DNA of 64,000 bases from positions 11,190,001 to 11,254,000 of the forward strand of contig OX291562.1 in the NCBI GenBank assembly GCA_946406115.1, in the 5' to 3' direction. The notes beneath the pieces are model-generated. The model saw nothing but the letters and a program-made list of their open reading frames with translations, searched no databases and had not been told where the DNA came from. Positions within the stretch are counted from its first letter, which is position 1; each line of letters opens with the position of its first letter. This stretch comes from Apoda limacodes. Taxonomy: Eukaryota; Arthropoda; Insecta; Lepidoptera; Limacodidae. Position numbers and translations under genes: made by a program. Shown in pieces: positions 1 to 62,506 of the stretch.

Positions 1-1011
1 TATGATTTCAAATAACTCCTAGTGACTTATAAAGTCCTAGTACATCAATCTTCCAAACACACAAAATCTTCATAGAATTAAGAAATACATTATAAATATA
101 CTTACATAGAAATAATCTTTCTTCGTTAATGCGTCCCTGAAGGTCCTTGAAGAAAATATATCATACATGCCATATCTGTAGGCCCAAACCGACACAAAGC
201 GGGCGCGGCCGCGGGTGAGCGTGGCGGGTGGAGTCATTCACACGACTAGGTTTCTCTCGTACAATCCGCCTGTTTCGGTTACACCGGACGGTGCGTGTTG
301 ACTGTTTAGACGGACAGTTAATCTAGACGCCTCAAAAATGGAAATAGATACGAAGGAATTTATATCATAATCTTTTGTCTATTTTTTTAAATGTTATCTA
401 AGGTACTTAAAGACATTTTTGTATATTTATATAATTTGTCAGGATGCAACCTTAAATCAGCATTAATCGTGTTGAATTATTATAGTATGTATTCCTGATT
501 TCACATAACTCGTTTTTCATTGAAGGTACGAATTTTCCATTAATAAAATGGCTTCTTTATCCATTAAACTGGCCAATGTTTGTGAATGTTTTATTACGTC
601 TGACCCGCCAGTACCTCGAGCGCTGACGGTGTCGCCGAATCGGCGCCAAGACCCGCGCGCCCGCGCCCTTCCCGGCACACGCACCTGCGCCCGCTTTCTG
701 TCTGTTTGGGCACTATGGCTAAGTCCTGGCTCAAGATTAATCTTTTAACCTCATCTTTGCTATGAAAATAATAATTTACATTGATATAATATAATATTAT
801 AGAAATATTAATGTTATAATATTCCTGATTTTTATTGTGTATACATATCATTTACATATTGATGTTTAAAGTTTAAATAAAGGGTCTTACGTTAACTTCT
901 GATCAGACTTTATAACAACTTCAATTGGTGTCTATACCTAGTTTTTACTAAGACTTTTTATTTAGACATTGTTATACGCTCATCTTAGTTACAAAAATAC
1001 TTGTATTTCAG
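1..1011. other. Intron of the ADAM gene, with a possible TIR element
   Basis: No exon was recognised here; the sequence ends in a pyrimidine-rich acceptor (ttgtatttcag) at 1,011. Two GC-rich patches stand out, about 195-235 and 600-700. Their outer parts form an imperfect inverted repeat, 183-206 against 687-710, with about 21 of 24 bases matching. This suggests a short non-autonomous DNA transposon. Open frames across the GC-rich patches look incidental. Confidence 0.5.
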
Positions 1012-1126
1012 ATGTGTATGAAGCAGAAATGTCTACCAGTGGAGTATGTTCAAGCACTTATAGCTAGAAAGGAAAATTCAGTCTGTCCGTCCAACTGTTC
1101 TGGTAATGGCGTTTGTAACTCAGAAG
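1012..1126 (+). CDS. ADAM exon: end of cysteine-rich domain and start of EGF-like module
   Basis: The exon follows a tttcag acceptor and ends at a GAAG|GTAAGT donor in phase 1. It encodes 38 residues beginning [10 protein letters not shown], matching the 'vCm..kC' end of ADAM cysteine-rich domains, and then the first EGF cysteines ([11 protein letters not shown]). The ATG at its edge is internal, not a start codon. Confidence 0.8.
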
Positions 1127-4100
1127 GTAAGTTGATTTTAGAGTTTAGTAAAGCGTATGAGAAAAAACACATTTTTTGGAATTTTTGTTTTATTTTTTTT
1201 GTTAACTGTTTTAGGTCATTGTCATTGCGAACCCGGCTTTGCGCCACCGCTGTGTGCTTTACCGGGTCATGGAGGGTCTGTAGATTCTGGTCCTAGCACA
1301 AATCCTAACAGTAAGATTCTTTATACTATTGAACAATGTATTTTTCCAAAATAGATTATATACATGCAAACTTTTCCTCCTTATGATATTGATATAATTT
1401 TAACTAAGATTAAAATGTATTGTAACATAGAGAAGTTTGTATATTGCAAACAAGTTGCTTGGTGCTTAAGTAGTATTACCAAGTCGATTATTTTTACCTG
1501 CCTCTCCTTCCTATTGTAAAACAACCTACAATATTGTAATTTTTTTCTTTACAGTACAAAGAAACTTTATGATCACTATGTATGTGATTTTCCTGGGCAT
1601 CATACCTTCATGTCTGATCATCATGTTCTTATTTTACTATTCAAGACACAACAATATCTGGTGGAAAAAGCAAAGAAAATCGTACGTACATGATATTAAC
1701 GCCAATGAAAATACTGGTGCTTCTGGGAGTGGTACTAAATGCACAATTGGTTGTTTTGGTTCTACTAATTTTCCTAAACTAGCTAATAATTCATGTGCCT
1801 TGAAACTGTCTCCTTGTTTTGCACGATCAGATAGTAATAATTCTGCCCTAATCAAAGGTACAGACACTGAATCACGTAAAGAGTCAATTTTTGATGAAAA
1901 ATTAATATACGCTAATAGTTCTGTATGTAAACAAAATGATGAATCATCAGAAAGCCCCGTTTATTCCAACATATCAGAAATTAAACCTTCTAAACTAGAT
2001 GCAAATGTTAAATTTCAAAGTATAGAAAATAAATCAGTCTTGGTTCATAATATACCTAAAACACATAATACAGAAGAATGTAAAAAGAAAAACGCAGCAG
2101 TTTCAAAATTAGACTATAGAATTAAAAAAGATTGTAATAAAGAAGCAATTGTTCACGTTAATTCTACAAATAACATTAATCCCAGTTTAGCTTCATCAGA
2201 TCCTCACATTTACGATACTATATCAAAGGATTACAAAACTTCTAAATCAAACTTTAATTCTCAAATAAGTCAGCCTAAAACAATACCAAACAAAATAATT
2301 AACTTTTTTGATAAAAGCGACCATGAAAGAAAAGAGTTTCCTGTTAAAAAGATCAATCGTAAAATTAATAAGGATGATATTAAAATCGTAGACTCTAATT
2401 ATATTGAATCAATGAAGCAAACAGAAATAAATGGAGCACTTCCAGCATATAGAAATACGAAAGGAAATAACTCTAAACTTGCAATAAATAAAAAACCTCC
2501 AATAGAAATAATCAAAACTGGTTTAGCGTCAACAACTAACACAATGATATCAAATACAAAAGAATGTCAAATTCCTCCTCTGCGTAATATCAAAGATAGT
2601 TTATCACAATCGACAGTATCAAAACATGTCGCAAAATTAGAAGAGCTTAAAAAATAAATTCATTTTCATCATTATGCCTGTAAATACATCAATTGTTTGT
2701 TCTACAGTTTGTTGAAAATTACCTATTTACATATCTTTGTTATATAATGACGAATTTGAAAAGTAATTGTACAACTTTGTACGAAATCGTGTAAAATTTA
2801 CGGTCCCTATAGTCACGGATCAAAAGTAATTTTGTATTGATGGAAATTTAATTTTAAAAAGTCTGCTAAAATTATTTTTCGACTTGATTATTACCATATT
2901 ATTTATATACTTCCATAAATATGTTAATTCAAAAATTCGACTTTTACCAACAAAGTTTAATGCTTTTCAAATGAGATGTTATGTTCATAAACTGTTTGCT
3001 GCTTTCGTTTTTCTATGTTTACTTGTGTATTTTTTGTATTATATTTAGTTTGTAAGATTTAATTATTTTAGTGTCAGTATGGGCTTTACTCTTTTCTATG
3101 CCTTGTCAGTTTTCTGTCTGAAATAATTGTGAATGCTTGGGAAATGTATCAAAAAACATAGAACATTAATTTTAATAAACTGTATATAGAACCTATTCAT
3201 TTTCCTTTTTACTTTATATATAAAAATATTGTCATCGTGTTAACAAATACGACTAAGCATTGTTCCAAATAGTTCATTTCTTTCATTATTATTTTTGTTA
3301 TTTATTATTCGTATATACATTGACAATATTTTTACATCTTTTTTCGCGTAGTCTTCTAGATGGTGTTATGTTATTGCTTAATTTTTGGTGAGTGGTTTTA
3401 CTTGATTTCTTAATTTGCATGACCCTTGTACCGAAGCTTAGTAATCAGCATTATATTAAAATAGAAAAACTGAGGCTTTTGCCAAGTGAACATATAGATC
3501 TGCGATATATAGACGTTATCTTACAAATGAAAGAGGATATATTTTACTGTGTCTGTCTGTTTAGTAAAGTAATATTGTCTCTATGACCGCTACCGCAGCT
3601 ATGCACACTTAGGGTTATTTATTAACCCTTTGTTTTCAATGCTACATGTAATTGTAACAACTTAAATAGATATTTATAATTTGGTGCTTTGGTGTAAATG
3701 TTATTTATTTAAGATTACTCCTTTAAATTAATGAGTTTTAATCTTACAGGTTACAGTCACCTAAGAAAACGAGTCTGCCTCATCGACTCTCACGAAGTGC
3801 TACAAAATTCGCTTCCAGTTTTCAAAATAATTCCCAAAATATTCCCCAACCGATTAATGTTCATACCGTTTCAAATCCTGACGACATGAGTTCCAGCCTA
3901 CTTCGAAATGAATCCGACCAAAGCCCTGCTGGAAACATAAATCCGTCTATAAACTTCTTTGGAAATTTTAAGGGATTCTCTTTAGCTCCAATTGACAAAA
4001 ATCCTGTTCCGGCTTCAAAACCCAACGAATCAGTCGACGAACGTACCGATAAAAATGATAAAAATAAAGCAGAAAGTATAAATACGAAAAGCGCTAAAAT

Positions 4101-6183
4101 AACACCTGTGCATAGAAGTGGAAGCAGTAGTCAAAATTTAGTGAATCAAGCAGTTGTAAAACCTGTTATAAGATCAGCTCCACCTTTGCCAGTTGTGCCT
4201 ACCATTGCTAAAACTAGTCCAAGCACAAGTCCATCAGTTAAAAGAACAAATAGCTCTGTTCAAAGTAAAATAAAAGCTTTAATGAGTGGAGAAAAATCTG
4301 AAGATATACATCATTCTCTAGCAAACCCCCCACTAAGACCAGTCATTTCCAGTCCAATTCTAGAAGCTTCTACATGTACAGCAAAGGAGCTTATATCACC
4401 GCTCCAAGGATCCAAAACTTTAGGACCAGTGAGAGCAGCTCCTTCGATTCCTGTTACATCACCAGAATTACCAAAAAGACCTTTAAGCATGCATTCATCT
4501 ACAATTGTACCTCAAAAACCCTTGCCAGAAGAACCTAAGAAGGTGAAGGAAGGTATTTCTCTTAACAGGATTGCATCGTTCTTAAAGCACGAGAAACCAA
4601 AAGAAAAAGAACGCAATCCAGTTGAACGCAGTCATTCTCTTCCGAAGAATACAGCAAATCAAGTTAAGCTCCCTAAAGCTGTAGACAAAATGACGTTACG
4701 AAATTTACAAATATCGAATCCAATACTACAAAAAGAAATTGAATTGCCTGTAAATACTGTCCCGGTTGTGTCCGACTCAGAAGATGCTGAAGATCCTAAA
4801 GCATTTACCAACAGAGCACAAAGTATGAGAACTCCTATCATACACAAACCGGTAATACAAAGTTTTGGATCAATGAGACAAGCACCTGGAGTTCCCAGGC
4901 CCATTTCTATTGTTGGAAGACCAACAGCACCACCACCACCTTTGCCAAATTCAAGTAATGTTGAAACAAATGATACTTTTTATCAGAATCCCAAACCTCA
5001 AGCTGAAATCAAATCTACTGATTATGTTGATTGTATAGAAGAAAAACCAGTTCCCTTGAGTCACATAGACGAAGATTCTGGTGAAAATATTTACACAATA
5101 ATAGAAGAGAGTCCAATTAAGCATTTGAATCCGTTACCTAGTGTACCTATTAAAACAATACCTCAGATACCGCCCGAAGGGTATAATACTCCTAAACCTA
5201 TCACATCTACTTCTGGAAGTTCAGAAAGTATGGGCTTGTTAGGAGAAATTGTAAACGAGATTCAGACCCGTAATTTTGATTCTATTTATTCTGCGTCAAC
5301 ACTTTCTAGAAAAAAGAAGAAAGATAAGGACATAAAAGTTCAAACTTCTGAATCAAACAGAGACAGTACATATATGAACACAGATCATTACAAAGTTCCA
5401 GAGAGTGTTTATAGTAATTCTGGAGCAAAATCTAGCGCTGCTTCTACGACTAGTAGTGGATACTTACACCCTTCTGCAGTAAATGTCCCAACTTACTTAA
5501 ATAAAACTGAAAAAGAAGAAAAGCTAGACAGTGAAATTCCACCTCCTTCACCTTCTGCCAAAGGTCCTAATTCTAAAATACCAACATTCAGTAGACAAAT
5601 AACACCACCTGGACTTAGAACTACTTCAACTTTTAAAAATAATCCTCAGTCCCCTAAAACTTCCAACAAAAACCTAAATCCAAAACTATCAAATAGTCCA
5701 GACGTTGTTTCTAGCTGTTCAATAACAGAAACAAAGAATGTAAAACCGCCAGATGTTATAAACAATAATAAATTGACAATTGAAGTACCAAAACTTACAA
5801 CGAAACCAAACGTTATCACTAAACCGAACGATAATCGACCACCATTGCGAACTGCGCCGGTAATAGAAAAGAAACCTACTGTCAAAATTACTCCATCTTT
5901 AAAACCTGTAGTAAACAATAAGCCACTAATTGAAAAGAATCCGCCCATAAATCGAACAAGTTCTAAAGCAGATACAAATGTTAAGGTAATAGCTGATAAT
6001 TTAAATAAAAACAAACCTAAACTGATTCCTAAACCTACGATAACAAGCGTGCAAAGGACTGATTCTAATATTAAACCAAGTGGTACAAAACTAAGTGCAA
6101 AACCTTCTAACGTAGCTAGTTTACAACAGAAATTTGAGAATAGAAAATCTTTTGGAAAAGACACTCCTGTTGTAAAAAAGTAA
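1012..6183 (+). CDS. ADAM-family metalloprotease (Meltrin/ADAM12/19-like), C-terminal half, partial gene
   Basis: This is the 3' part of a gene for a membrane-anchored ADAM protein. The family cleaves cell-surface proteins and binds partners through a long cytoplasmic tail. The visible exons are 1,012-1,126, 1,215-1,310 and 1,555-1,681, followed by either a read-through tail (to 2,657) or a spliced tail (3,750-6,183). All splice sites are GT-AG and the phases join cleanly. The protein runs from the end of the cysteine-rich domain (CMKQKC) through an EGF-like module ([11 protein letters not shown], then CHCEPGF) to a transmembrane helix, a basic stop-transfer stretch (WWKKQRK) and a tail. The propeptide, the zinc-binding protease and the disintegrin domain must lie upstream of the window. 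The family call is firm; the subfamily is inferred from the EGF module and the very long proline-rich tail. Confidence 0.85.
1215..1310 (+). CDS. ADAM exon: rest of EGF-like module
   Basis: The exon completes the EGF-like fold with [13 protein letters not shown] and continues into a glycine/serine-rich stalk (GHGGSVDSG). The acceptor is gttttag and the donor is ACA|GTAAGA, phase 1. The upstream intron is only 88 bases. Confidence 0.8.
1555..2657 (+). CDS. ADAM exon: transmembrane segment, reading through to the shorter cytoplasmic tail
   Basis: From the acceptor at 1,554 the frame enters IQRNFM, then a hydrophobic helix of about 22 residues ([20 protein letters not shown]), then WWKKQRK. If the donor at 1,682 is not used, the frame stays open for a further 325 codons to a TAA at 2,655-2,657. 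That tail is lysine-, asparagine- and serine-rich with tyrosine motifs (SPVYSN, HIYDTI) and no recognisable domain. A stop-free run this long in AT-rich DNA supports real coding. AATAAA at 3,174-3,179 would serve this isoform. The ATG at 1,569 is not the protein start. Confidence 0.75.
3174..3179 (+). terminator. AATAAA polyadenylation signal for the short-tail ADAM isoform
   Basis: A canonical AATAAA lies about 520 bases after the TAA at 2,657 and before the next exon's acceptor at 3,749. This is where a transcript ending in the read-through tail would be cut. Confidence 0.45.
3750..6183 (+). CDS. ADAM terminal exon: long proline-rich cytoplasmic tail
   Basis: The exon begins after atcttacag at 3,749. 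Joining from a donor at 1,682 (exon ending ...AAATC, then GTACGT) is phase-correct: the split codon becomes TCG (Ser) and the tail reads on as [16 protein letters not shown]. It is open for 810 residues to TAA at 6,181-6,183. The protein is disordered in composition, with many proline motifs suited to SH3 domains (APPPPLP near 4,925-4,948, [14 protein letters not shown]) and tyrosine sites (ENIYTI, ESVYSN, DSIYSA). Long SH3-binding tails are known in ADAM12/19-type proteins. The first in-frame ATG, at 3,886, is unlikely to be a start because the upstream 45 codons are open to the acceptor. Several AATAAA signals follow, at 6,191-6,200 and 6,620-6,625. Confidence 0.8.
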
Positions 6184-10070: not shown

Positions 10071-10299
10071 GGGTTAGCTTAGACCGAGACGCAATGCGAC
10101 GCGGCATTTTTAAGATAGCAACACATTATGGATCTTGTTTACTAGACAAACAGATACAAATTATAGTTAGAGTAGAAAGTGAGATGGAACGTGTCGGAAG
10201 TACATCGTATGCGTATCTTTTTGTCTAGTAAACAAGGTCCATAATGTGTTGCTATCTTAAAAATGCCGCGTCGCATTGCGTCTCGTTCTGAGCTGACCC
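10071..10299. mobile_element. 229-bp TIR element related to the copy at 9.3 kb
   Basis: The arms are inverted copies about 90 bases long (gacgcaatgcgacgcggcat against its complement, then aagatagcaacacattatgg). The internal core 'gtcggaagtaca' matches the core of the 9,293-9,539 element. TTA precedes the left end, but no TTAA follows the right end. Confidence 0.6.
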
Positions 10300-21616: not shown

Positions 21617-24251
21617 TACGTATATTAAAACCTAGTCCCCAATAAAAATAATTTTAGCTTAGAGATATTTTTGGTCTACTATTGGTTTATTTTTGCAGGG
21701 CTACTACTACAAAGCCACGCTCTGAATTGACGTTAGAGGAACTAGGTAAAATAGAGGAAGAAGAGTTTAGCACAGGGCCTCTCTCTGTGCTTACGCAATC
21801 TGTGAAAAACAATACACAGGTTCTTATTAACTGTCGTAATAACAAAAAATTGCTTGGGCGTGTGAAAGCTTTCGACCGGCATTGTAACATGGTTTTGGAA
21901 AATGTTAAGGAAATGTGGACTGAAGTGCCTAGGACCGGTAAAGGGAAAAAGGTAAATGTTTTTGCGCTAATGAAGTTAATTAAAAAAAAAACCAGTATTC
22001 TAGTTATTTTAGGTTATCTTTGTATTAGGGCATAGGTAGAGATTCAAAACACAAGGTTACAATAATCGTTTGGACAGGAATTATGAAGTAGAGATAAACT
22101 GAGCTTGTTTTTATTAATGGCGACTTAGATGCTCATTCTCACATTGAAAACATTTTGCAGCCCCATGTTCTTCCATTTTCACTGAGCATTGGCTTAGGTT
22201 TTACTTTGATGTATGACAATGCTGGTTGTAATACAGCTAAGAGGACCCAAGAATTGCAGTTGCAAGTGAACATTTAAGTTCTGTTGTGGCCTGCTCAGTT
22301 CCCAGACTTAAAACCAATTGGAAATTAATAGGATGTTCTCCAGAGGTGCGTTTTGGGAGACCTTGGCAGCATATGTCGCAGCCATCTGGTTAAATTAGCT
22401 AGTTAATTGGGAGCCTAGGCAGATAGTTAAGTATGGAAAAGAAATTATCATATAACTGAACAGATTATTATATAAAACATAACTGAAACACAAGAGAATC
22501 TGAACCTAACCCAACATTACATGACTTATACAGTGCAATTTCTATTCTTTTCATTTCCATACTTGACTATCTGCCCAGGCGTCCAATTAACTGGCAAATT
22601 TAACTAGATGGCTGCAACATATACAGCCAATGAATGATTGTCACAGGATGAGATAAATAACCTTACAAATACAATTAACCGCTGAGGTCATCAGGTTTGA
22701 AATAATTGTGTTTGTCATATTTAAAGGAGAATCTGAAGCGAAGTTGAAGCCATTTGCTTACCACTTGTCAAGCAAGACTAAAGTGGTTGGTGAAAAGAGG
22801 CTGTCGCTCATATGATGTGTATACAGCCACTGATTAACCCCTTAGGGAAAAAAACCATACCTATTGTTTGTATGAAAATTATTAACATCAGATTCATGAT
22901 TGAAACATTATTTTCAAACTGAGCCAAGGCAAGCCAAAGCAGATAGGTATCTAAGTGATGAGTTTGTGCAAAACTAAAACTAGTTCATAATAGATGTTTT
23001 AGACCAGTAGTTCCCAAAGAAAAAAAGTCATAACCTCTGTTTTAGACAGTATTTTATTTACTAAATTAATTCCTAATAATTATAGCTATGGGAAATTCTT
23101 ACCACAGTTGCATTTTTATATGAGGCCAATAGCTGTCTCTAATATATGCAGTCTTTTGTTGCTGGGACTATATATAGAGCAATTCAATACACAAATTTTA
23201 ATTTTTTTTTTCTAAGCAAATTTTTTGTCTTCTGTCAAAACATTGGACATTTTCCATCCATATAGGCACTATTTTTTCATATTTTATTTCCTACAATACT
23301 GTTTTAATGTCACATCCATTTTTATCAGTAGGTACAGTCAAAAGATAAATCAAGAAATGGATCCAATTTTTTTTTAATTATCTTAGCGAAAGGCAAAGAG
23401 TATGTTAAGAGCCTATACAGCCACACGGCAGTTAGATTAGGTAATGAATAAAACAAAAACTGCAATTTTTATCTGATATACATGTGTCAAAACAAAGTGC
23501 AATTCGAAAGATTCCCCCCAATTTCATTTACTACATCTACCCAACCTAATCCAACAACCTGTGTTCTGAGGAATTGTTCAAAATAATGCCCTACTACTTT
23601 CTACCATCGCACGGCTTGCCATCGGCAGGGAATTCAATCTCACACTTTAGCACCTAAATGGTAGCATACAGTGTGGTTTCAGAGAAACTTCCTCCCCCGA
23701 ACGCTTGGGTTGTGGAATGAGCTCCCTGCCAAGGTTTTCGCTAAGGACTACAGTATGGGGTTCTTCAAAAAAAATAATCTTAAGTGTTGACAAGGCGCGA
23801 GTGATGCCCCTGGTGTTGCAAGCGTCCATAGTCTACGGTGACCACTTACCATCAGGCGGACCGTAGGCTTGTTTGCCACCTTAGTGGTATTAAAAAAAAA
23901 AAAACTTACCCTTGATATACTTGTAAATTTTACTAGTGTACAGCTACTTGTTACAAATGTAGATCAATGTTTTCGAGACAAAATTCACTAGAACTAATCA
24001 AGTTTGGATTAGTAACTGGTAACTGCTAGACTAGTAAACTAGCATTCTTTCATAAATAGGGTCCAGTTGTAAGTTTGAGAATCTATAATGCTACTTGGAA
24101 TTGTGCAATAAAGAATATTGATTCATTGTAATGTTTTATTTTTCAGGGCAAAGCTGTTAACAAGGACAAATTTATATCTAAAATGTTTCTCCGTGGAGAC
24201 TCCGTGATCCTAGTCTTAAGGAACCCTCTGGCAACTGCTGCAGGAAAGTAG
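21617..24251 (+). CDS. SNRPD2: Small nuclear ribonucleoprotein Sm D2
   Basis: Sm D2 is one of the seven core proteins that form a ring on U1, U2, U4 and U5 snRNA in the spliceosome. The coding exons are 21,699-21,951 and 24,147-24,251, giving 119 residues with the start methionine (human 118). The sequence matches the family almost throughout: EEEEFNTGPLS-like start, the Sm1 stretch [39 protein letters not shown], a GKGKK linker, and Sm2 [17 protein letters not shown]. Exon 2 begins with a G that needs an AT before it. A donor at 21,617 follows AAAAT, so the start codon seems to be split AT|G by an 82-base intron. Intron 2 (2,195 bases) carries decayed transposon pieces. AATAAA lies at 24,427-24,432. 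Confidence 0.93.
21699..21951 (+). CDS. SNRPD2: Sm D2 exon 2
   Basis: Carries the third base of the start codon and 84 further codons, through the Sm1 motif to GKGKK. The donor is AAAAAG|GTAAAT in phase 0. Confidence 0.93.
22095..22350 (+). pseudogene. Tc1/mariner transposase remnant in Sm D2 intron 2
   Basis: Broken frames give [20 protein letters not shown], then [17 protein letters not shown], then [15 protein letters not shown]. These match the D-D(E/D) part of Tc1-like transposases (DNARPHTA and WPAQSPDLNPIEN). Stops interrupt it and the last motif has lost its catalytic acid (PIEN to PIGN). Confidence 0.75.
23558..23904 (+). mobile_element. 5'-truncated 3' end of Jockey/CR1-group LINE
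   Basis: Matches the end of the larger element at 50,620-50,930: 'tgtgttctgaggaattgttc', 'gccatcggcagggaattca', 'taccatcaggcggaccgta', then 'gtttgccaccttagtggtat' and a run of A. This copy keeps the 'gaatgagctccctgccaagg' part that the larger copy has lost. Confidence 0.8.
24147..24251 (+). CDS. SNRPD2: Sm D2 exon 3
   Basis: The exon follows tttttcag and encodes 34 residues ([18 protein letters not shown]... to LATAAGK) and a TAG. It contains the Sm2 motif whose Arg-Gly lines the RNA channel in Sm proteins. Confidence 0.93.
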
Positions 24252-24432: not shown

Positions 24433-24706
24433 TACTACTTTCATTCCACAGTTTGTTTAATTATTAATTCTTTGATGGGGCAAAGCACTTTGCTTCCACT
24501 ACATTCTTGAAGAGATTGTCTAGAAAAACTGATTTGGTTTATTTTTTTATTTATTTTTTGGCAACAGGTTTGGTCATTCAAATACTAATCTTTTCTACCC
24601 CTAGTTACTAAATCTAAGACATCAACTGCTGGTGGGGGCCTACCCACCATAGGCCTTTACATCAGCTTGACTCGCTGCTTGCGTCCACTGGCTTTCTGCG
24701 GCTCAG

Positions 24707-25081
24707 CCAACCAGGGAGATTATTTCAGGAAACCTTGAGGATTTAGTTCGCAAGTTCTAAATGCCACCTTTTAGCCCGAAAAAACATTTTCCCTACCAGT
24801 GTGTGCCTATTCTAAGGCTTGTATTATGGGTTGAGTTCTTAAGAATTGTTTGTAATTATACCTGCGGCTACTTTCCGTCGACACATCACTTGTCATCGGC
24901 GTGAAATTCACCCACACACCTTGGAGCCTAAATACTTACGCACGGTGAGATTTTAAAGGTGCTTCCTCTTGCGATCGGCTTACTTAATTGAGGAATTGCC
25001 TTCCAGTAAAGGTTATCTTTAGGGAGTATAGGTATAGGGTTCTTCAAGTCGAAAAGAAAGGATATCTATTCTGAATTACTA
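24707..25081. repeat. 375-bp direct repeat, left copy (flank of the RTE element)
   Basis: Reading base by base, I find this stretch identical to 29,288-29,662, offset 4,581. It starts 'ccaaccagggagattatttc' and ends 'gatatctattctgaattact' plus A. Outside it the two flanks differ at once on the left side. The content is itself an old LINE 3' end: 'cttggagcctaaatacttac' and 'gaattgccttccag' resemble the CR1-group tail. Confidence 0.9.
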
Positions 25082-25285
25082 TAATAATAATAATAAGCCT
25101 TTATTACTGACAATTACATACAAGTTGGTGAAAACATATATGTAAATACATTGTTAATTTATTTATGCTATTAATATGCTAAAAATAAAATAAAAATAAA
25201 GTTTGTTGCACATCATTCCGGAGTTTTGTTTGTGTCAGCGTGTTCTTTTAACACATAGGCCTCCTCCAACCTTTTCCAGGTTGCT

Positions 25286-28173
25286 CTATCTTTGGCAGCT
25301 CTTGTCCATAAAGCACCTGCTGTTTCTTTGAGATCGTCTGACCACCTTTTTTTTTTGTCTACCTCTTTTCCTCTTAGTGTTAAATCTAGGGGTCCACTCT
25401 GTTAAGGTTTTGCACCATTTATTCGTCTGGTCTCTTAGCATGTGTCCTGTCCATCGCCACTTGAGTTGTTTTGTTTTAGTTGTAATATCTTGAAGCTTTG
25501 TTATTTTTCTTAGTTCTACTGCTTGCTTCTTGTCTTTTCTTTTGAACCCCAGGATACTCCTTTCCATGCTCCTTTGGCAAGTTCGGATTCTATGCTGTAG
25601 TTTCAGTGTGGTGGCCCATGTTTCACATCCATACGTAAGTATAGGTAGAATACATGTGTTAAATAGTTTTCTTTTCACTTGCATACTGTATTTGACATCT
25701 TTCATTACATGTTTCAGGGACCAATATCTTTTCCATGAGTTTGCTATTCTTCGCTCTATTTCTTGTTCGAGCTGGTCATTGAAAGAGATAAGTTGCCCTA
25801 GGTATATGTATTCGTTTACATACCCTATAGGTTCACCTTCTAACTGTATAATAGTCTTTGATCTATTGGTCATTAGTTTTGTTTTTCCTCTATTCATAAC
25901 AAGTCCTACTTTTCTGCTTTTTAGGGATAGTTCTGTGATCATGGTTTGTAATGTTCTGCACAGTCAGTGATCAGCACTATGTCGTCAGCGAACCTAAGAT
26001 GGTTGAGCTTTGTTCCGTTGATATTTATTCCCAGGTTATCCCAGTTTAATTCTTTGAACACTTCTTCCAGCACTGCAGTAAAGAGTTTTGGTGAAAGTGG
26101 GTCACCTTGTCTCACTCCTTTTTGGATTGGGAAGCTATCTCCTTGTGTTTCCAATTTCACTTGTGCTGAGCTGTTTTGGTAAATGTTCCTTATTAACCTT
26201 ATATATTTACAGGGTACCCCCTGGGTTTTTAGCGCTTTCCATATGTAAGAGTGTTCCAGTGAGTCAAAGGCTTTGTGATAGTCAACAAAACCTAGATATA
26301 AAGCGTATCCATATTCCTGGCTTTTTTCTATTAATTGTTTTAGGGCATGCATATGGTCTATAGTTGAATATCCAGGTCTGAAGCCTGCTTGTTCACGTGG
26401 TTGTTGTAGATCCAGAGTTCTTTTGATGCGATTCAGGATGATTTTGGAGAAAACTTTATACACATTTGACATTAAACTGATGGGTCGGTAGTTACCCATG
26501 TTACTTTTGTCTCCTTTTTTATGTATTAGGATTATGGTACTATTTGTCCACTGGCTAGGGATATATTCTGAATCCAATACCTTGTTGTAGAGTTCCGTTA
26601 GTGTGTATACTTTTTGTGGTAGGGTCATTTTTAATGTTTCGTTTGTTATGTTGTCTGGGCCAGGTGATTTGTCATTTTTCTGGGTATGTATAGCAAAGAT
26701 CACTTCTTCTTCAGATATCATTGGCACGGTCTCCTCATTTTCTTGTGTGTCTAGTCTAATGGTTTCGTCTTGTGAGATTTGAGAGGTATATAAATTTCTG
26801 TAAAAGTCGGTGGCTACTGTTAGGATTGTCTTTCTTTCAGTTATTAGTTTTTTGTTTTTGTTTAGAAGAATTGGTATCCATGATTTATGCTCTTTTAGTT
26901 CTTTTAGGGCCCTTTTAATACCCCCTGTTTTGTTAATATAATCATTGATACATTCATTTTGTCTTTTTAATCGGTCTTTTTTTATATTTTGTGTTATTTC
27001 CTTACTTATTTTAGCTATTTCTCTGGCCACGAGTTTATCCTTTTTATTCTTAAACATCTCTTTCCTCTTTTGTAGGAGTTGCAAAGTGCTTTTACTAAGT
27101 ATTTTGGATTTGTTGTTTCTAATATTTCTATTTTCGTTTAAGCTATTGATTTCAAGGTTGTACATTTCTTGTATTGAGTTGGTTGGGTATTTTGAGCTGT
27201 AATTTTGTGGGGAAGGAACATTTAAGAACTGATTTCTAAAGTTTTTCCGAGATTTCCTATCTTGATACTGAAGTGTTGCTCTAACCATTCTGTGGTTTGT
27301 GTTAAAATTAAGTTGATTAATAACTTTAACATCTTTGAATGCATCGGGTCGGTTACTAAGAATATAATCTATTTCATTACGGTATGTGCCGTCAGGTGAT
27401 ATCCAAGTCCATTTCTTTGAGGCTTTTTTCTTGTAGCAACTGTTCATAATTGTAAGATTATTTTCTAAAGCCATGTTCACTAACCTTCTCCCATTAGGGC
27501 TTCTTCTTCCTAAACCAAATTTTCCCAGGACTTTTTCTTCACCTTGGTTTTGTTCGCCTATTTTACCATTAAAGTCGCCCATCACAATGACATTTTTTTG
27601 TGTATTCTGTAGGGTGGCAGAGAGGCTTTTATAGAATTCGTCTTTGCATTTATCATCCGCCGATTCTGTTGGCGCATATACTTGTATAATAGACCATGGA
27701 TTGCGGAAACCGGGTATGTTTATGTTCAGTATTACAATTCTCTCGGAAATACCTCTGAGTTCTTTAATGTGTTTCTTTAAGTCTTTTTTTATCAAAAAGC
27801 CAACTCCATACTGTCCTTGTGTCTGTCCTTTGTAGTACAAGATAAAGTCCTGGTATTCCTCTATACGATCACCAAGTCTTCGAATTTCACTCAAGCCGAG
27901 GATGTTCCATTTAATATCTTGCAGTGCATTACTTAGTTCAAATAATTTTTCATCGGTTCTAAGAGACAGTGTGTTAAGTGTTGCTATTTGTATGTTATAA
28001 CTTTGGTCTTGTTTTATTTGTCTTCTCTTTTGCATTCGTCTTTGACTTTGTGTTGGAGGGTTGCGGTCATTAACCCCCACGGTGACCGCTATCCGGCTTG
28101 GGGGCATGTTTTGATTTTTCTTGTGTGGTGTTGTTTCTTCTATGTTCGTTATTTTCCGGTTTCTGATGTGCAC
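25286..28173 (-). CDS. RTE element ORF2: endonuclease and reverse transcriptase, with one frame break
   Basis: Residues about 40-290 form an APE-like endonuclease: ATLNTLSL, LSEIRRLG, a GDFN motif (VIVMGDFNGKIG) and an ...NEIDYILSN...NTNHRMV end. The reverse transcriptase follows: NDKSPGPDNITNETLK, HKKGDKSNMGNYRPISLMSN, GFVDYHKAFDS, KGVRQGDPLSPKLF and the catalytic LRFADDIVLIT. After that the frame breaks at 25,950-25,951, where one base seems missing, and the C-terminal 200 residues continue in the next frame (25,286-25,942). Total length would be about 960 residues, usual for RTE. The extra open frames on the opposite strand are shadows. Confidence 0.85.
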
Positions 28174-28179
28174 CTTTTC

Positions 28180-28955
28180 TCATTGCTTTGTACCTGCTGA
28201 AGGTGTTGGGTTTGCGTTTGACCTAGCAAGGTGTATAGGTCTAGATGAGTTTGTTTTATTTATTTTTGTCGGCCCTTGCTGGTCTTTATTATCATCCTGT
28301 GATGATGCTCCGTTAGGTGATTCTGTGGGTTGCCGCTTTCGCTTATCGTAGCTCTTGTGTTCCTTAGGTTTGTCTTGGATAATTAATTTATCATACATTA
28401 TGTATGCCAGATTTCCTTTTTTTATTTCTTCTTGTTGCTTTATTTTTAGCTCCTTTCTAATTGCTATGACGTCCTTGGGATAATCTTCTGTAGCATATAT
28501 GTTAGGAGGTAATTGTTTGTTATTGCGTAAGAGTTCGCGTTTTCGCCATTCCAAAGTTAATGAAAGAAGGATGGGTCTTCTTTTTTGCACTTCCTTCTTC
28601 CCTAATCTACGTACATTACTGATCTCCCATTTGTCCCAGTTTTCTAGTGCCATGTTTTTATTGCAGTCATTTAGTGTTTTTAGGACTAGTTCTAAAAGTT
28701 CGGCATTGTTGCTTTCTTTTTCTTCTAGCCCGTGTAAAACGATATTGTTTTTTCTTGTTTCTCGCTCAAGGTTATAATTTTTCCTTTTTAGAATTTCAAT
28801 TTCGGTTTTTAATTTGAGGTTTTCCTCTACTAGAGGTTTTAATTTTTGTTCCATTGTGTTAGACAAACTTTCCGCATTTTTATTGTTTGTTTTTGAAATT
28901 CAGTTTTCATATCCTCCATTTTCTGTAGCAATAGTTGAATGCTGCTGTCTTCCAT
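28180..28955 (-). CDS. RTE element ORF1: coiled-coil, basic protein
   Basis: The clear part is 28,180-28,866: a coiled-coil start (LKPLVEENLKLKTEIEILKR), a central region (NNIVLHGLEEKE, then WEISNVRRLGKKEVQKRRPI) resembling the RNA-binding fold of LINE ORF1 proteins, and a lysine-rich tail. The real start is probably the ATG at about 28,955 (MEDSSIQLLLQKMEDM), but a one-base break in the T5 run at 28,877-28,881 separates it from the rest. ORF1 stops 6 bases before the first ATG of ORF2, so linked translation is likely. Confidence 0.65.
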
Positions 28956-29049
28956 TGTTATGTTCAGGTGTCATAAACTCGTATTATCTCTGTCTATTAT
29001 ATATTTATTTAGGGAATTTATTTTTCGGAGCTGGCAACACTTAGATATT

Positions 29050-29087
<38 letters not shown>

Positions 29088-29287
29088 TATTTTTATTTTG
29101 TTATTATGATGATAAATCTCTTTAGTTTACAAATCCTGCACTAAAAACACTATTTGTTGTTATAAACAGTACTTTGGTTGTTTAAATGAGTTAGTATTTA
29201 GCACAGATCAAGCACTTTTTACACTATATTTTGAGTTTGTTTTCAAGAGCGTCGCGACGTGTTGTTAATCGTATGACAGCCGGAAGT

Positions 29288-29662
29288 CCAACCAGGGAGA
29301 TTATTTCAGGAAACCTTGAGGATTTAGTTCGCAAGTTCTAAATGCCACCTTTTAGCCCGAAAAAACATTTTCCCTACCAGTGTGTGCCTATTCTAAGGCT
29401 TGTATTATGGGTTGAGTTCTTAAGAATTGTTTGTAATTATACCTGCGGCTACTTTCCGTCGACACATCACTTGTCATCGGCGTGAAATTCACCCACACAC
29501 CTTGGAGCCTAAATACTTACGCACGGTGAGATTTTAAAGGTGCTTCCTCTTGCGATCGGCTTACTTAATTGAGGAATTGCCTTCCAGTAAAGGTTATCTT
29601 TAGGGAGTATAGGTATAGGGTTCTTCAAGTCGAAAAGAAAGGATATCTATTCTGAATTACTA
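29288..29662. repeat. 375-bp direct repeat, right copy
   Basis: Identical by eye to 24,707-25,081. It is followed by 'ataataaataaataaa', so the boundary with the next sequence is simple-repeat-like. Confidence 0.9.
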
Positions 29663-29751
29663 ATAATAAATAAATAAAAAACAATTTTCTGGACAGAAAA
29701 GGTGGCCGTAAAATCCTATACTATGAGTATCTACCTACACACATATCAACG

Positions 29752-29955
29752 TTACGCTTGGGTTGTAGAATAAGCTTCCTGCCAAGGTTTTCTTTAATAA
29801 CTACAGTATGAGGTTCAAGAAAGAAGTTATCAGATTTTTGAAGAGTCGGCAACGCGCGAGTTGCAAGTGTTGCAAGCGTCCACAGGCTACGATGACCACT
29901 TACCATCAGGCGGACCATAAGCTTATTGGCCACCGTAGTGGTTTAAAAAAAAAAT
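29752..29955 (+). mobile_element. 3' end of Jockey/CR1-group LINE, short copy
   Basis: Shares 'cctgccaaggttttc', 'gactacagtatg'-like, 'ggtcggcaacgcgcgagt'-like and 'accatcaggcggacc' words with the copies at 23.6 and 50.8 kb, and ends in A9. Confidence 0.75.
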
Positions 29956-41900: not shown

Positions 41901-44900
41901 AACCCCCGGGAATAGCTGTAACCAAATACCATGTTGACAAACTATTACTATATAGCTTGCTAGAGCAAACTTTGCATTTATAATCAGGCTATATCAAGTA
42001 AGTTTTTTTTTGAACATAATGTAATAACCTGATTCCTAGCTTTTTTTTTTCTGACTCAATACTGCAGTTGGCTGATGCAGCCATTACTGCTCCATCGGGC
42101 TTTTGAGGCAGTCAACGCTTCAGGGCTTTCCGCGGGGCGGCTCGGCTTTGGCTGTCGCTCTTGGTGTTCCTAGCACCTGGCCGGATGCTTTGGTGACAGA
42201 AGGAATCACAGGAATCTAGCACTATCTCGCTCTTTTAGCCTTGACAGCACATGATGTTTGACACAAGGTTTCGCCGTAGAAATTCCTTGCCAACATCCGA
42301 ATATACAAGAAGCAGGGGCTATCCGATTACGAATAATAAATATTGAGAAGTGAATATTAAAGAAAAAATGTATTTATTAGATTCGTTCAGCATGTCATGA
42401 TTTCCTTTAAAAATATAATAAAAATTTAATAAATATCTGTCTGTCTGTATATAAGAAGAATATGGCTGACTGATTTAATGAGATATTAACGCATAGCCCA
42501 AACCGCTGGGTGTACAAACTTGAAATTTGGCATGTGGGTTCCTTACTTTATGTGTAAGGCTCCAATAGAAAAGATTTCGCAAAATTTATCCCCTAAAGGT
42601 GTAAAATGGGGGTTATAATTTTGAAAAGTCCGTTAATTTTGAAATTAAATGCATAAAAATTGGGATACGGCGCTTAGGTTGAAAATTAAGATTGTCATTA
42701 TTCAACATTTATGAAAGGGAGAAACACAGGGTGTGAAACATAGTATAGGTAAAACATGAGACAATTACACCTTTCTTTTTTAACCAAAGTCCATGCGGAC
42801 TAAGTTGCAGGAAAATCCATTGTTAAACATAGACCTCTTCTTATATGTTCCCTCAACAGCCGGCTGTCAACAGTGTATTGAAGAGGAAGAAAGAAGCTAG
42901 TACCAAACGAAAACTAAACACCACCTACTTTCAAAGATATAGGCTGATTGAAATCCACTCTTATGCTCCCATGGTTAGTATTCAGAGTCCTCCAAATTCC
43001 TCTTAAAGCTGACCAAAACGTTTCCATCTGCTTCGGCATTCCCAATTGCTCCCTTACAAAGTTACCATCGACCAGTCTGTCGTAATTCAAGGTGACTGGT
43101 ACTAATAATGCGTCATCTATGGTACCGTCAAGGTAAGCGTCCATTATCACGGACAAAATTCCAGCTGAAAATTAAATAGAAACTAATTCGATTTTGTAAT
43201 GTAAAGTAATAATTTCGCACTAAGCTTGGGCGGTGAACTATGGCCCAAGCCTCCTTTCTCTAAAATACTTGCTGAAACTGCTTATTCTATAATTACGATG
43301 TTGAAATTTGTATGTGTACAACTTGAGGGAATTAGCTTAGTCTTAATATTTACGACTATGGATAGTAGATGGATATGTTATAGGAGGCTTAGGTAATAGT
43401 ACACCGTGCTGGCCCGGTGCGAATTGGCAGACGTTGTCGTGTTAGTGACTATTCCATTGTAAGCATTTTCAAGCCGTCTAAGGCTTCTGTAAGACTTAAT
43501 CAGTGCTGTCATATGATAACGGCCAGGACCTACGGTTTAAAGTAACATATACTATACACTAGCGCCGCCACTAGAAATTGTTTATTTCTTTTTTGTACAA
43601 AGCGTATTTTAAAATAGTGAAAAAAAAAAATACTAAGTAGTCGTATACTATACATATATAAAACTTTTCGTATTGTTCATAGATTATTTCTGTTATTTTT
43701 ATTTCGGGTTTTAAAAGTGGCCGCCTTTTTTCAATACCCCAATTAAAACTTTCCGTCATATTCTACAAATAACACAAAAGTTTGTAATTTCTTTTTAAAT
43801 ACGTGTTATATGAAGTAGCAATAAATAATATCTATTGGAACTTAGAAAAATGTGCCACTAACCTATCTAATATAATTCTACCCTTTGCGGCTAATAAGTG
43901 TAACGCTAAATATCTATGTAATTATGTGTTTTATTTATTGTGCTACGAAACAATTAGGAAAAAATACCAACCCCAATGTCCTTTAGTATAATGACGAGCG
44001 TGCCAAATAAAATACAAGACACATTAACAAATATACACGAAAAAGTTTTTTTTAAATAAATAAGTAAATATTATACCAAAACCTTAATGCTAAGATATAA
44101 GGACAAAAACAATAAAACATTGTGTATTATGGGTTGTAAGGAGAAAATTACAAACGAGAGGCTATTTTGAAGCCAAATTCCGGTTCCGCACAGTCGGTGT
44201 CACACACAATGTTTTTCATCACATTTGCGAATAAATAAATAAAAATATAGGGTGAATAAATAAATAAACTCAACAAAACACAATTGAAATCGCTAAAATA
44301 GAAGTAGAGAAACGTTTTGGCTCAAGTTATATAACTTGTAATTGCTCGCTTGTAGTGTCTGCGTAGTTCATAATTTTAATAGACAGCTTTAATGCATACT
44401 AAATAGAATAGCCGCGTCATTTCCACCCGTGAGTTCTATAAATTCGCGCTTTGCTTTGAGACAAGTAAAATTTACAAAGAAAAAGCCAGTGGGAGGAATT
44501 AACTTCTTAGCACCCGCATTCACTGCGCTTTTTAGGAGTAAGTGTGATGAAAATATCCGTCCCCAGTGGTTTTACACACGTTAAGATAGTGCTTTACTCC
44601 TCAGGGTCATAGCGTGAAGTAATATAGCTCAGGTTACAGAGCCTTTCACAGTAAACGGGCCTAAGGGCATGCAAGTGAGTTAAGTTGATCGTTACACACA
44701 AAGTATCAGAATCCTCAACATATCGTTCTCTATCGTCTCCCGTGAACGCTTAGGTTGTCGAATGAGCTCCCTGCCAAGATTTTCTCAAAGGACTACAGTA
44801 TGGGTTTTCTCAAGAAAGAAGATTTTTGATTTTTGAAGGGTCGGCAACGCACGAGTGATGCCAAGTGAAGGCTGCGTTGATCGCTTAATATCAGGTGGGC

Positions 44901-47900
44901 CGCAAGCTTGTTTGCCACCATAGTTGCCACGCCAGAATAGGGAGTAATGGAACCTAGTGTGTAATAATGTCCATTTTTATTTTTATCTACGCAACTGTGT
45001 TAAAAAATGTCGTATTAAGCGCGCGAGTATTGGTCGTTACACACTTAATTGTAGTATTCCTAATCGGCCAAATAATTCCTAAAATTACTTGCAAAAAATC
45101 ACGTTTGTTGTATGGGAGCCCCCTTAAATATTAATTTTATTATTTTCTAGTATTTTTTGTTATATAAATATACATCATCTGTGAAAAAGCCTGGTGACAG
45201 AGAGACGGACGGACGGACGTACGGAAAGCGGAGTCTTAGTAATAGGGTCTCGTTTTTTACCTTTTGGGTACGGAACCCTAAAAAAAGAAGTACAAAAAGT
45301 TTACAATCCACACTGAGCCCGCGTGAAATTTCCCACGGTGGGGGCAGACCGTGCCCCAGCAGTGTGGTGGAACGCGACTTATAAGAAGAAAGTGATACAT
45401 GGACACCCAGACTTAAGACAAACACAAATGAACCCGCGCCCTCGTTTCAGCAGGCAGGAGCATTAACAACTGAGTCACTTTATAAGGCAGTCAAAAAAAT
45501 CTACTTATCGCTTATTTATAACAATACAACGAAATAGAATACTCAATGTTTAACTAACACCTTATTTGTTTACTCTACAGCTAAGCTAATACGTTTGTAT
45601 CAATATTTAAATATATTTCCGTCCTCTACCCTATTATTTTTTTAAAAAAAAAACCAAATATTTATTTACCTTTAGGCGGTTGTGGTTTTCCTGTTCTAGT
45701 GCGACCTCCTTCTATGAAAAACTCTATATTATTGTGTTCCGCTAAACTGTTCAAAATATACGCTCTGGGAACAAAATATATTTACATTACGTTAGGAAAG
45801 TATGCATGTATTTATAACATCACGGTTTTTATCATTTAGGGGATAACCAGTCCAGTAAATAAACATTGCTTACCTTAGAGCAGCCTTGTACATAAGATCA
45901 GTCTTACTCTCAGAACCATCGGTTCTTCGTTTTATGTAAAAGGCACCGCAACCTCGCAAGAACCAACTAAAAAAATTTTTTTCAAAGTTCTAGTTAATCA
46001 ATTTAAAACAATAAAAATAAAAATAATCTCTAATAGTCCGAAAATTTAGTTTTTATAATTTATTTAGAAAATAAATATTATTTAAGAGAAAAACAATAAA
46101 TAAGCTGGTAACATTGTTTTTTAAAAGAACAAAAAGAAAATTTACTTCTTACCCAAACAATGGTATCCTCATATTATCGCCCGCCGCAACTAAAGGCGGT
46201 CTTATACCCGTCAGGTACAGGGTAAATGTTACTAATATGTAGTCAAAATGTGATCTATGCAGCGGTATAAAAACGAGCGGCAGCCCCGCCGCGTTAGCGC
46301 GTTTTAACCGCTCGATACACGCGCTTCTAGTACCACATACGCCGCCGGCTACCCTTCTAACTGCTTTGTGGCATAACCATGCAACAAACCTGAAATAAAT
46401 AAATACAAAATACTTTAGAATTATTAATAATTTCGCCAATACACGTAAAGAAGATAATTTCGAATCATAATTTTATATAATTCACTCTTTGGCAAAGAAA
46501 TTTACTGTCCTATTTATAAAAAGAAAAATTATCTGTAGCTGCTTCTTTGCTGCACGTCGCTAACATTTTAGAATTGATTTAAAAAAAACGTGAGTAAGAC
46601 GAGCGTGTTTCAACCGCTCGAAAGCTGTAAAATAAAGTCTCTTACTTGAGCACGTTATTGCTCATAGCAGAGCTGATATCTTGAAGAACTGTAAGTGCTC
46701 TCTTTTCCACTTTTTTTCTGGTTTCTTGGTACTGACTATTAGATTCATCTTCCGTCCCTTCATTATTCTCTTCTCCTTTTAATTTCTTTAACTCTTCTTG
46801 TGTAGTCTCTTCTATCGCGTTTTGGAAACGCTTGTCTTTTATTACCTGCCAAAGAAGAAAATTATCGTCAAATACATGATAAAATAAAGATTAAAGATTG
46901 GCTCTTTCTGTAACTTGATCCAAAATTGTTGACACTATTATATCTATTGACACCAATTGATGAAAAATCTAATATAATACCCTGTTTTTAGGTACACAAC
47001 TTAGGTAACAGACAAAGAGCCGTGCTACAAGGTAAGGTTAAGATTATCTATACGAATTAGTATAGATATACCGTTACTACCGTTAGCAAAATTTTTAAGC
47101 CGTAAGTATATCCAATGTATATAAATGAGATATGTCAGTTCTAGGAGCCAATTGTCACGCGATCGAATCACGAATGCGTAATAAAGTAAGAATTTAAACT
47201 TTTCTCGAATGAAAATGTAGTTAAGCAATTCTGGTAATGTCGAATCCGACATTTCTCGAACGCAAGAAAAAAAGAACTTATATTAGCAAATATGATATGT
47301 TTTAACCTTTATTCCTTTCATGCATTATTAGTCTTTTCTCATTTAATTAATTGGCCGATTTTCGGCTTTATTAATACGCCCGTGACAAAAATATTTTTCT
47401 ATTTCTATTAATTTCCATCATAACAAACACTAGGTTACATCACATACACTGACAAAAATGTTTATGGTCTGGCGCCGCCATCTTTAGTGCTGCGTAGTAT
47501 TTTGATAATACTTATTAATAATAATTGAATAATCACAATTACACATTTGAAAAATACTTATAATTCTCAGCCAAAACAAAGCCAAAAAAAAAACAAATAA
47601 AACACTCAATAAAAACAGTTTTTTGGGGGTGAGTAAGGTTGCCAGAGCTCTTTGAGGATTCGCTGCGCGGACAGCGGAGGACCGGCGGTGCTTGTTGCTG
47701 TCATGCTCGGCGTAGACGCTGCGTGTTGGTTCGGCGGTCAGGGAGACCTGACCGCTGGCCGCCCGCAGGTTGAACGGGATCCCGAACCCAGGGATCACAT
47801 AATCTCCGCCCTGGGAGGCTGATCCGCCAGCCTGTGTAAAGTATCTGAAGTGGTAGTCGTGCCGGAGAAGGAGACCGGAGTGGACCCGGCTACTACAACA

Positions 47901-50900
47901 GAGGGGGATCAGGGGCCCTTCCGCCCGCCGTGCCAGCAACCGTATCATCTGTGGCGAGCTTCGGCAGTCTTAGAACCGCACCTTTTGTCCTCTAAGCTGT
48001 CTGTGCAGTGAATCCTCATCCTTAGTCTTCGTAACTTTTTTAAATATAATGGCCATGAGAACGAAAAAGAAAAGAGTTTGTACAGCGGCTACTCCATCCA
48101 CATATAATGTGGATTTTTGCAACATCAGGGGTATTCACGCAAATCTTAACGCAGTCCACCATCATCTCGAGACTGCGCAGCTGACCATTCTTTTTTTTAA
48201 CGGAGACGCAGATATCCTGCCCGGCCAGCACATCATAGCTTCACTACCCCGGCTACAAACTCGAACACAATTTTATGAGCCGTGCCGGTGTATGTATGTT
48301 CGTCCGGGAGGATATCTGCTGTCGCCGCCTTCATAGCCTTGAAGACAGGCACCTGTCGATATTATGGGTGCGCGTAGATTACGGCGGCCACACTCGTATC
48401 TATGCGTACCTATACAGGTCTCATAGCGGTGACACGGACGTAACTCGACTCTTCACGCACCTGAGTTTGACGACTGACAAAGTTCTAGAGCAATATCCCA
48501 CAGCAGAACTAGTTATTTTGGAAGACTTTAACGCCCACCATCGTGAGTGGCTCAGTTCTCGAACCAATAACTATGCTGGGATATCTGCTCATGAATTTGC
48601 TCTGACCTATGGATTCTCTCAGCTGGTACTTTCTCCAACGAGAATACCAGATATAGAGGAACATACGAGCTCATTACTGGACCTTTTGCTGACTACTCGT
48701 CCGAACGGATACTCCGTCTCAGTGGATGCGCCTCTTGGCTCCTCGGACCACTGTCTCGTTCGGACTTAAATGTCATTCATGCACACAACCCGATCGTGTG
48801 TGGCACTATAAGTCGGCAGACTGGGATGGATTGCGAGAATTTTACGCATCGTACCCGTGGAGGCAGATCTGCTTTAACTCAGAAGATCCTGACGTCTGCG
48901 CAGCCGCAGTCACTGCTGGCGTCAAAAAACGACCGTGGTTTAATAGGTCTTGCAGAAAAGCTAGAATTCTTAAGCAAACTGCCTATGAGGCTTGGACCAC
49001 GGCTCGTAGTGATAAGGATCCGAATATTTCTGAGTTAAAACGCAAATTAAATGCTGCCTCGAGGTTCAGTAAGAAAGCAACTGCCAGAGCAAAATTCCAA
49101 TTCATCGGCAAAATAGGTGCGCGACTTGCGAGCTATCCTTCTGGGAGTCGTGCTTTCTGGTCGCTTGCCAAAGCTGCCGAAGGGAACTTTTGCCAGTCGT
49201 CGTTACCACCCCTGCGAAAGACCGATGGTGACTTGGCCCATAGTGCTAACGAGAAAGCCGATCTACTGGGCTTTGCCTCGAACTCGAATATGAACGATGA
49301 AGGCGCTGTACCACCTACTATACCGTGGTGCGGTAAGACCATGCCGGAAATCTCCATAACGCAGCGGGAGGTCCGGCAGGCGTTGCTTTCTCTAGACGTT
49401 CATAAGTCGAGTGGGCCAGACGGTATACCAGCAGTGGTGCTTAAGCAGTGTGCTCCTGAGTTATGTCTTGTACTCACGCGCCTCTTCGCGCTTTCCTACG
49501 CTAACGAAGACTGCGAATGTGCACCCGGTGCCCAAAAAGGGCGATAGATCAGATCTATCGAACTACAGGCCTATCGCTATTTCCTCCCTCCTCTCCAAGG
49601 TGATGGAGCGTGTGATCAACACACAGCTTCTAAGATACCTAGAAGTACACGACCTGGTCAGTGACCGTCAATGTGGCTTTTGCCACGGCCGCTCGACTGG
49701 TGACCTTCTAGTGTGTCTCACACACCGATAGGCACTAGCCATTGAGAGTCAGGGGGAGGCATTGGCATGTAGCCTGGACATAGCGAAGGCGTTCGATCGG
49801 GTCTGGCACCGGGGTCTTCTATCGAAGTTGCAATCTTAAGGAGTGCCCGAGGGTTTGTGCAAGTGGGTGGCAAGGTTTTTGTCCGGCAGACGCATACGAA
49901 CCGTAGTTGACGGTAGTTGCTTTGATAGCATGGACATTAATGCTGGTGGTGCAAGGCTCTGTGCTGTCTCCTACGCTGTTTCTACTGAATATCAATGACA
50001 TGTTGGACATCAACAACATACATTGCTATGCAGATGACAGTACTGGAGACGCTTTTTACACGGGTCGTGCAAACATCCCTCGTTCTGTTGTGGAGGAAAA
50101 CCGTGGAGAACTTGTGTCTCAAATCGAGACCACACTGTCCAAGGTCTCTGACTGGGGACGGGTAAACTTGGTCCGATTCAACCCTACAAAGACACAAGTG
50201 TGAGCGTTCACCGCAAAGAAAACTCCATTCACTGTAGTTCCACAATTCCAGAACACTACCCTCTCCATCTCCAAGAGCATTGGGATCCTTGGTGTCGACA
50301 TCTCCAGCGATGTTCAGTTCCGAGATCATTTACAAGATAAGGTGAAGCTGGCGTCCAAAAAACCTGGTGTACTCAACAGAGAGAAGCAGTACTTCACGTC
50401 GGGGCAAAGTTACTTTACAAGTCGCAAGTTCGGCCCCACGTGGAGTACTGCTGCCATCTCTGGGCGGGTGCACCCGGATACCAGCTTGGCCCTTTTGACT
50501 CGGTTCAACGACGGGCTGTGAGAATTGTCGACGATCCCAAACTCACTTGCGGTATCGAGCCCCTAAGTCTGAGGAGAGACTTTGTCTCCCTGTGTGTGTT
50601 CTACCGCTTGTACAATGGGTTGTGTTCTGAGGAATTGTTCGAAATGATGCCCACGAATACTTTCTACCATTGCACCGCTCGCCATCGGCAGGGAATTCAT
50701 TCTCACACTTTAGAACCTAAATGTTCGCGTACAGTGCGATTTCAGAGAAACTTCCTCCCGCGAACGCTTAAGTGGTGGAATTAGCTCGTTATTAGATTTC
50801 TGAAGGGTCGGCAACGCGCAAGTGATACCCCTGGTGTTGCAAGCGTCCATAGGCTACGGTGACCGCTTACCATCAGGCGGACCGTAAGCTTGTTTGCCAC

Positions 50901-60584: not shown

Positions 60585-61084
60585 GCACTTTCAGTTATTT
60601 GAGTCCTTGCTCAACTGTCCTTATCAGTAACATATAAATTTATTATAGTAGAAACAATATTCGCAAATTAGTATACTTGTGTATTTCACTTAAGGATTAC
60701 TGCTGATTAAACAGTTGTTATTGTATGATTATTTATGTAACATAGGTATAAATCGCGGTACGTAAGTTGACCTGCGCCGTAACACATTTTCGGTTCGTTA
60801 GTACATTACTCTCTTTTTTTTCTAATGAGAAAAACTAAAATGAACCTTTTTATTAAAATAAGTAGCTCAGATGAGCGATAAAGTGGTAAAAAACTGTTTC
60901 ATACAAGCTGCAATGGGTCTTGTAATTCAGTATAAAGTAACTTTATAGTAGCAACAATACGCTCACGACCCGTGCAGTAAGAATTTTCCCTGCACCCACT
61001 GGTGGGTAGATCATTGGGTGCAAGAGTCGTAAGCGCTACAATACACCTTTTTAGTTTGATACAAGCAACAACGGTCCTTATTAA

Positions 61085-62235: not shown

Positions 62236-62506
62236 TAAGTTGATTGACAAAAGCAAAAATGCCCCTTTTAATAACAAGTAAATAGCTTTCTACCGACAGT
62301 AATATTCGTTTTTTAATTCGAAATGTCTGGCTTTACTGAAGTTACAAAAAGTATTTTTAGTAACAAATAAGCAGCTTGATGGACCCATCAACAATTTTAA
62401 GTTTATAACTGTTAACAAGATACTTTATAGGCTCGTATTTAAATAAGAAAGTTGATTGCTGCTAATAATATTTTGATTCCATCAATTAAGTATTTTTTTC
62501 AGTGTA

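Follow-up and report, generated by a model that had tools for sequence, protein, structure and literature searches.

How does a LINE come to lie between two identical copies of a 375-bp sequence? This question is raised by a locus in the genome of Apoda limacodes, within the stretch of DNA analysed here (hereafter the window; 64,000 nucleotides, positions 11,190,001 to 11,254,000 of contig OX291562.1). We consider that the two copies are a very long target-site duplication, produced by ordinary target-primed reverse transcription in which a nick or end 375 bp distant served for second-strand synthesis, and we assign this reading a probability of about 0.88. Pairwise comparison within the window showed that positions 24,707-25,081 and 29,288-29,662 are identical over 375 bp, with the first base beyond the match already mismatched on both sides. 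The left copy adjoins, at 25,082, the (TTA)n tail that forms the 3′ end of a minus-strand element, while the right copy adjoins the 5′ end of the same element at 29,287. The preliminary description, which had placed two identical segments directly at both ends of an RTE element, was thus borne out, with 0 mismatches and no extension of the match. No other exact direct repeat in the 64 kb scanned, a window that contains no N bases, is as long as this pair, and chance is ruled out as the source of the identity. The next 24 direct repeats listed all fall inside a tandem array of 110-bp units at 61-62 kb (60967-62366), in which 11 copies were registered, mostly with 95-96% similarity. The window also contains an inverted repeat (10071-10299; 87-nt arms, 94% complementary, 55-nt spacer), perhaps a small hairpin element.

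The sequence between the two copies (25082-29287, minus strand, 4,206 bp, sense start at 29,287) was identified as an RTE-like LINE based on Pfam AP-endonuclease and reverse transcriptase domains and on alignments of sister copies. It is complete at its 5′ end, since the sister copies L017 and L019 start at the same 5′ base (element position 1) and L018 starts one base later (position 2). The main part of ORF2 (25939-28173, minus strand, 744 aa) encodes the endonuclease and the reverse transcriptase, and PF03372, PF14529 and PF00078 all map within this single frame, whose identity to the 120 listed of 343 protein relatives ranges from 41 to 60%; among those 120, the relatives are lepidopteran wherever the source name gives an organism. 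In the window copy, ORF2 is broken and its remaining C-terminal part (25286-25942, minus strand, 218 aa) is read in a different frame, with indels there that are absent from L017 and L018. A probable ORF1 of 228 aa, taken from the open reading frame listing and without a Pfam match, spans 28180-28866 on the minus strand. Because this candidate exceeds the 43-aa ORF1 described for RTE-1, the clade name RTE is used provisionally. The stretch after the last ORF is about 200 bp long and ends in the (TTA)5 tail (25082-25096, minus strand), which can be read directly in the sequence and is joined to the target at ...ATTACTA; the 3′ ends of the sister copies carry similar TTA-type tails. A long A run on the sense strand is present within the 5′ UTR (window 29050-29085).

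Identical terminal direct repeats have a superficial resemblance to those of LTR retrotransposons, and the 375 bp could accordingly be regarded as part of the element, whether as terminal repeats, as LTR-like sequence or as transduced sequence. LTR elements carry their terminal repeats at other copies, are bordered by a 4-6 bp duplication outside them and have TG...CA ends. We searched the assembly from which the window derives (800,300,627 bases in 31 contigs) with the 375 bp and scored the best 40 of 406 candidates. The full-length identical sequence was found at two places, both in the window, and the other 38 scored matches, pieces of an old dispersed repeat, were 69-72% alike and confined to positions 61-359. 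The 375 bp at other copies of the element, which the preliminary description had named as evidence that would overturn its reading, was therefore not found among the best 40 of 406 candidates. A second query, consisting of the 5′ 538 bases of the element (window 28750-29287), matched eight places in the genome, the window included (8 of 8 scored). Three sisters reach the 5′ end, among them L017, which aligns to element positions 1-4203 with 99.6% identity; the flanks of L017, L018 and L019 are unrelated and lack the 375 bp. Since, among the best 40 of 406 candidates, the repeat is found in full only here, and three 5′-reaching sisters are without it, the 375 bp is target DNA, which supports the earlier reading of a 375-bp target-site duplication. 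Identical target repeats stand at both ends and are absent from the element itself, as in a LINE insertion, whereas among the candidates scored the terminal repeats occur only here, the flanks outside them differ, and comparison within the window revealed neither a short outer duplication nor TG...CA ends. Based on the genome search and the 5′ flanks of the sisters, a repeat or LTR carried by the element was rejected, and we give it practically no weight.

The duplicated DNA itself contains an old piece of a dispersed repeat. It corresponds to positions 82-352 of the 375 bp (24788-25058, plus strand, with its counterpart at 29369-29639) and shows about 70% identity to its relatives. Members of the same repeat family were observed elsewhere in the window, at 23560-23904, 29754-29954, 44737-44924 and 50586-50927. 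We aligned the left flank, one 375-bp copy and the right flank as a continuous sequence against six genomic relatives (L003-L008), to which the pieces inside the 375 bp are 69-72% identical and those of the right flank 80-86%. The two are separate fragments of one repeat family that overlap in family coordinates; thus, this alignment gave no independent proof of the junctions.

How the family usually integrates was read from its other copies. The 3′ end of the element (window 25082-25600) was used as query and matched all 40 scored candidates (best 40 of 93), and junctions were read at 32 of the 39 non-window places among them. Matching was exact and a repeat could reach at most 15 bases into the element or end at most 45 bases before it; single lengths are therefore approximate and may contain chance extension. 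A direct junction repeat of at least 9 bp was present in 23 of the 32 sisters vs 10 of 264 mismatched flank pairs, the window flanks being among those paired, which indicates that the family uses staggered-cut integration. Twenty-two of these repeats measure 9-17 bp and one, in L050, 37 bp; none of the 32 sisters has a junction repeat of 100 bp or more. The match extends 6-10 bases into element-aligned bases in five of the 23 (L022, L026, L029, L037, L040) and stops 5-14 bases short of the element start in L017, L018, L019, L028, L038 and L042; at the 5′ junction of L017, the short duplication is separated from the start of the element by seven additional bases. The nine sisters without a repeat of at least 9 bp are L020, L039, L041, L043, L044, L045, L046, L049 and L052, with repeats of 8 bp in both L039 and L049. 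Long repeats abutting the junctions were not found in these nine copies, the scan having reached 206 bp upstream in L046 and 272 bp in L052. Repeats that do not abut the junctions are present in L049 (41 bp, 90%) and L045 (82 bp, 83%) and were taken as dispersed repeats. The sister copy represented by L050 with L062 (C21) is 5′-truncated at element position 723 and has a duplication of 36-37 bp, the second longest of the 33 copies read. Truncation at the 5′ end is strong in the family as a whole, with eight places matching the 5′ end vs 93 candidates in the 3′-end search (40 of 40 scored matched). The window insertion is an outlier, one among 33 copies read and about tenfold above the next longest, not a family trait. 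The preliminary description had remarked that RTE-clade elements are known for variable and sometimes long duplications; the sisters read here do not show this.

The insertion is also young. The window copy differs from its nearest sister, L017, by 7 substitutions in 4,195 aligned bases, four of which are private to the window copy when L018 is used as outgroup; these numbers support the earlier description of the insertion as recent. At this private rate (4 in about 4.2 kb), hand arithmetic gives at most about 0.7 expected differences between the two 375-bp copies, so the 0 observed is unremarkable.

In element sense, the ancestral site reads ...TTTATTTATTAT/TAGTAATTCA ... CTCCCTGGTTGG/CTGAGCCGCAGA..., and the boundaries of the duplication locate the two putative nicks. 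The first-strand nick, at which priming would have occurred, falls at 29662-29663 (sense TTATTAT/TAGTAATTC), and the second-strand nick at 24706-24707 (sense GGTTGG/CTGAGC). In 23 of 23 sites listed (the window and 22 sisters), the duplicated stretch has TA among its first four bases, a by-eye count made without a chance control; pairing with the TTA tail may account for part of this. Since the first-nick site of the window carries TA as those of the sisters do, the first step of integration looks ordinary; the tail and the 5′ end of the inserted element are both normal. No motif is common to the first-nick site and GGTTGG/CTGAGC. This agrees with the statement in PMC6895275 that second-strand sites are often unrelated.

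Based on these observations, we infer two nicks followed by fill-in. A full-length RTE-like LINE would have entered an A+T-rich site by target-primed reverse transcription, with a first nick in the plus strand of the window, after ...TCTGAATTACTA, providing the primer for reverse transcription that began at the (UUA)n tail. Second-strand synthesis would then have been primed from a 3′ end of the other strand 375 bp off, vs about 12 bp in most sisters, and fill-in of both long single strands would have copied the 375 bp to either side of the element. The distant 3′ end may have come from the element's own endonuclease or from repair, or else from a nick or break that arose independently, either in the same duplex or in the sister chromatid.

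This explanation covers all features of the locus with one event. Points against it are that only one of the 33 copies read has such a duplication and that the second-nick site shares no motif with the first. The identical end sequence would equally result if a 375-bp tandem duplication had come first and the element had later hit the exact joint without a duplication of its own. However, the insertion would have had to strike one bond among hundreds, the tandem duplication and the insertion would have to be of about equal age, and the element would have needed no duplication of its own, yet a junction repeat is present in 23 of 32 sisters (with none clear in the other nine); we regard this order of events as very improbable. 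Slightly less remote, although still improbable, is an assembly artefact in which the flank was falsely doubled during haplotype collapse or joining. The identity of the two copies would fit such an error, and the evidence consists of assembled sequence. Nevertheless, there is no reason why a false join should coincide exactly with both element ends, the assembly comprises 31 contigs for 800 Mb, the window is free of N, and identity of the copies is what a young age predicts.

A further possibility is a sub-case that overlaps with the favoured reading, so that the odds of the two are not exclusive. The event may have been associated with replication or a break, the cDNA having been attached to a 3′ end of the sister chromatid, in which case the locus would be a small LINE-mediated tandem duplication. 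Joining to a sister-chromatid 3′ overhang has been proposed in PMC7058536 as the origin of a duplication of 22.6 Mb that has an L1 at its joint. The end product would be identical; the sequence does not distinguish sister-chromatid joining from a pair of distant nicks in a single duplex, and we consider this route possible, though rather unlikely. In the tumour case as in the window, a direct duplication has a single LINE at its joint; that of the tumour is somatic and 22.6 Mb long, and that of the window spans 375 bp.

Long duplications around LINEs are known from human L1. PMC5223499 reports that L1 duplications in repair-deficient cells range from 5 bp to 5.3 kb, and that duplications above 100 bp make up at most 10% of the insertions in HeLa cells; a more random, distant nick is suggested there, a proposal that the authors label speculative. 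The window shares with these insertions a LINE between target copies longer than 100 bp, for which a distant second nick has been suggested. Those insertions were engineered in cultured cells and were commonest with defective nucleotide excision repair, whereas the RTE-like element of the window inserted naturally, in an insect genome. In the L1 data quoted in PMC2912911, extremely long duplications accompany 5′-truncated copies and full-length copies have 10-17 bp; the window copy is full length, which speaks against a simple parallel. A median of 21 bp is given for human mobile-element insertions in PMC12350158.

Among lepidopteran RTE elements, PMC2887409 gives duplications of 20 bp for HmRTE-e01 and 10 bp for HzRTE-1. 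Both resemble the window element in their AP-endonuclease and reverse transcriptase, their simple-repeat tails and their varying duplication lengths, although these lengths are ordinary compared with 375 bp. Published values are 10-12 bp for SR3, and a Bov-B study surveyed duplications over the range of 10-49 bp only. A limited search of open PubMed Central text found no RTE-clade duplication above 100 bp. The bdelloid rotifer element R9 is likewise a non-LTR element whose stagger is very long, 126 bp according to PMC6895275. It differs in being rDNA-specific, by the title of the R9 paper, and in that the long duplication is given as its product, while the long stagger in the window is an isolated event in a family with mostly about 12 bp. 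Long duplication is known in kind from L1, and in this otherwise ordinary family it is a rare event.

PMC6895275 calls the second half of LINE integration very poorly understood. A natural, young and fully readable outlier beside ordinary sisters separates the two steps, with the first nick appearing normal and the second alone displaced. The locus also shows how a LINE can give rise to a small duplication with an LTR-like structure. We tentatively propose, with the odds somewhat against us, that RTE-type LINEs in the insect germline occasionally finish on a 3′ end hundreds of bases off or on the sister chromatid, generating small tandem duplications with the element at the joint. If this is true, recombination between the repeats could later restore such loci to a single clean copy of the target, with no trace of the element.
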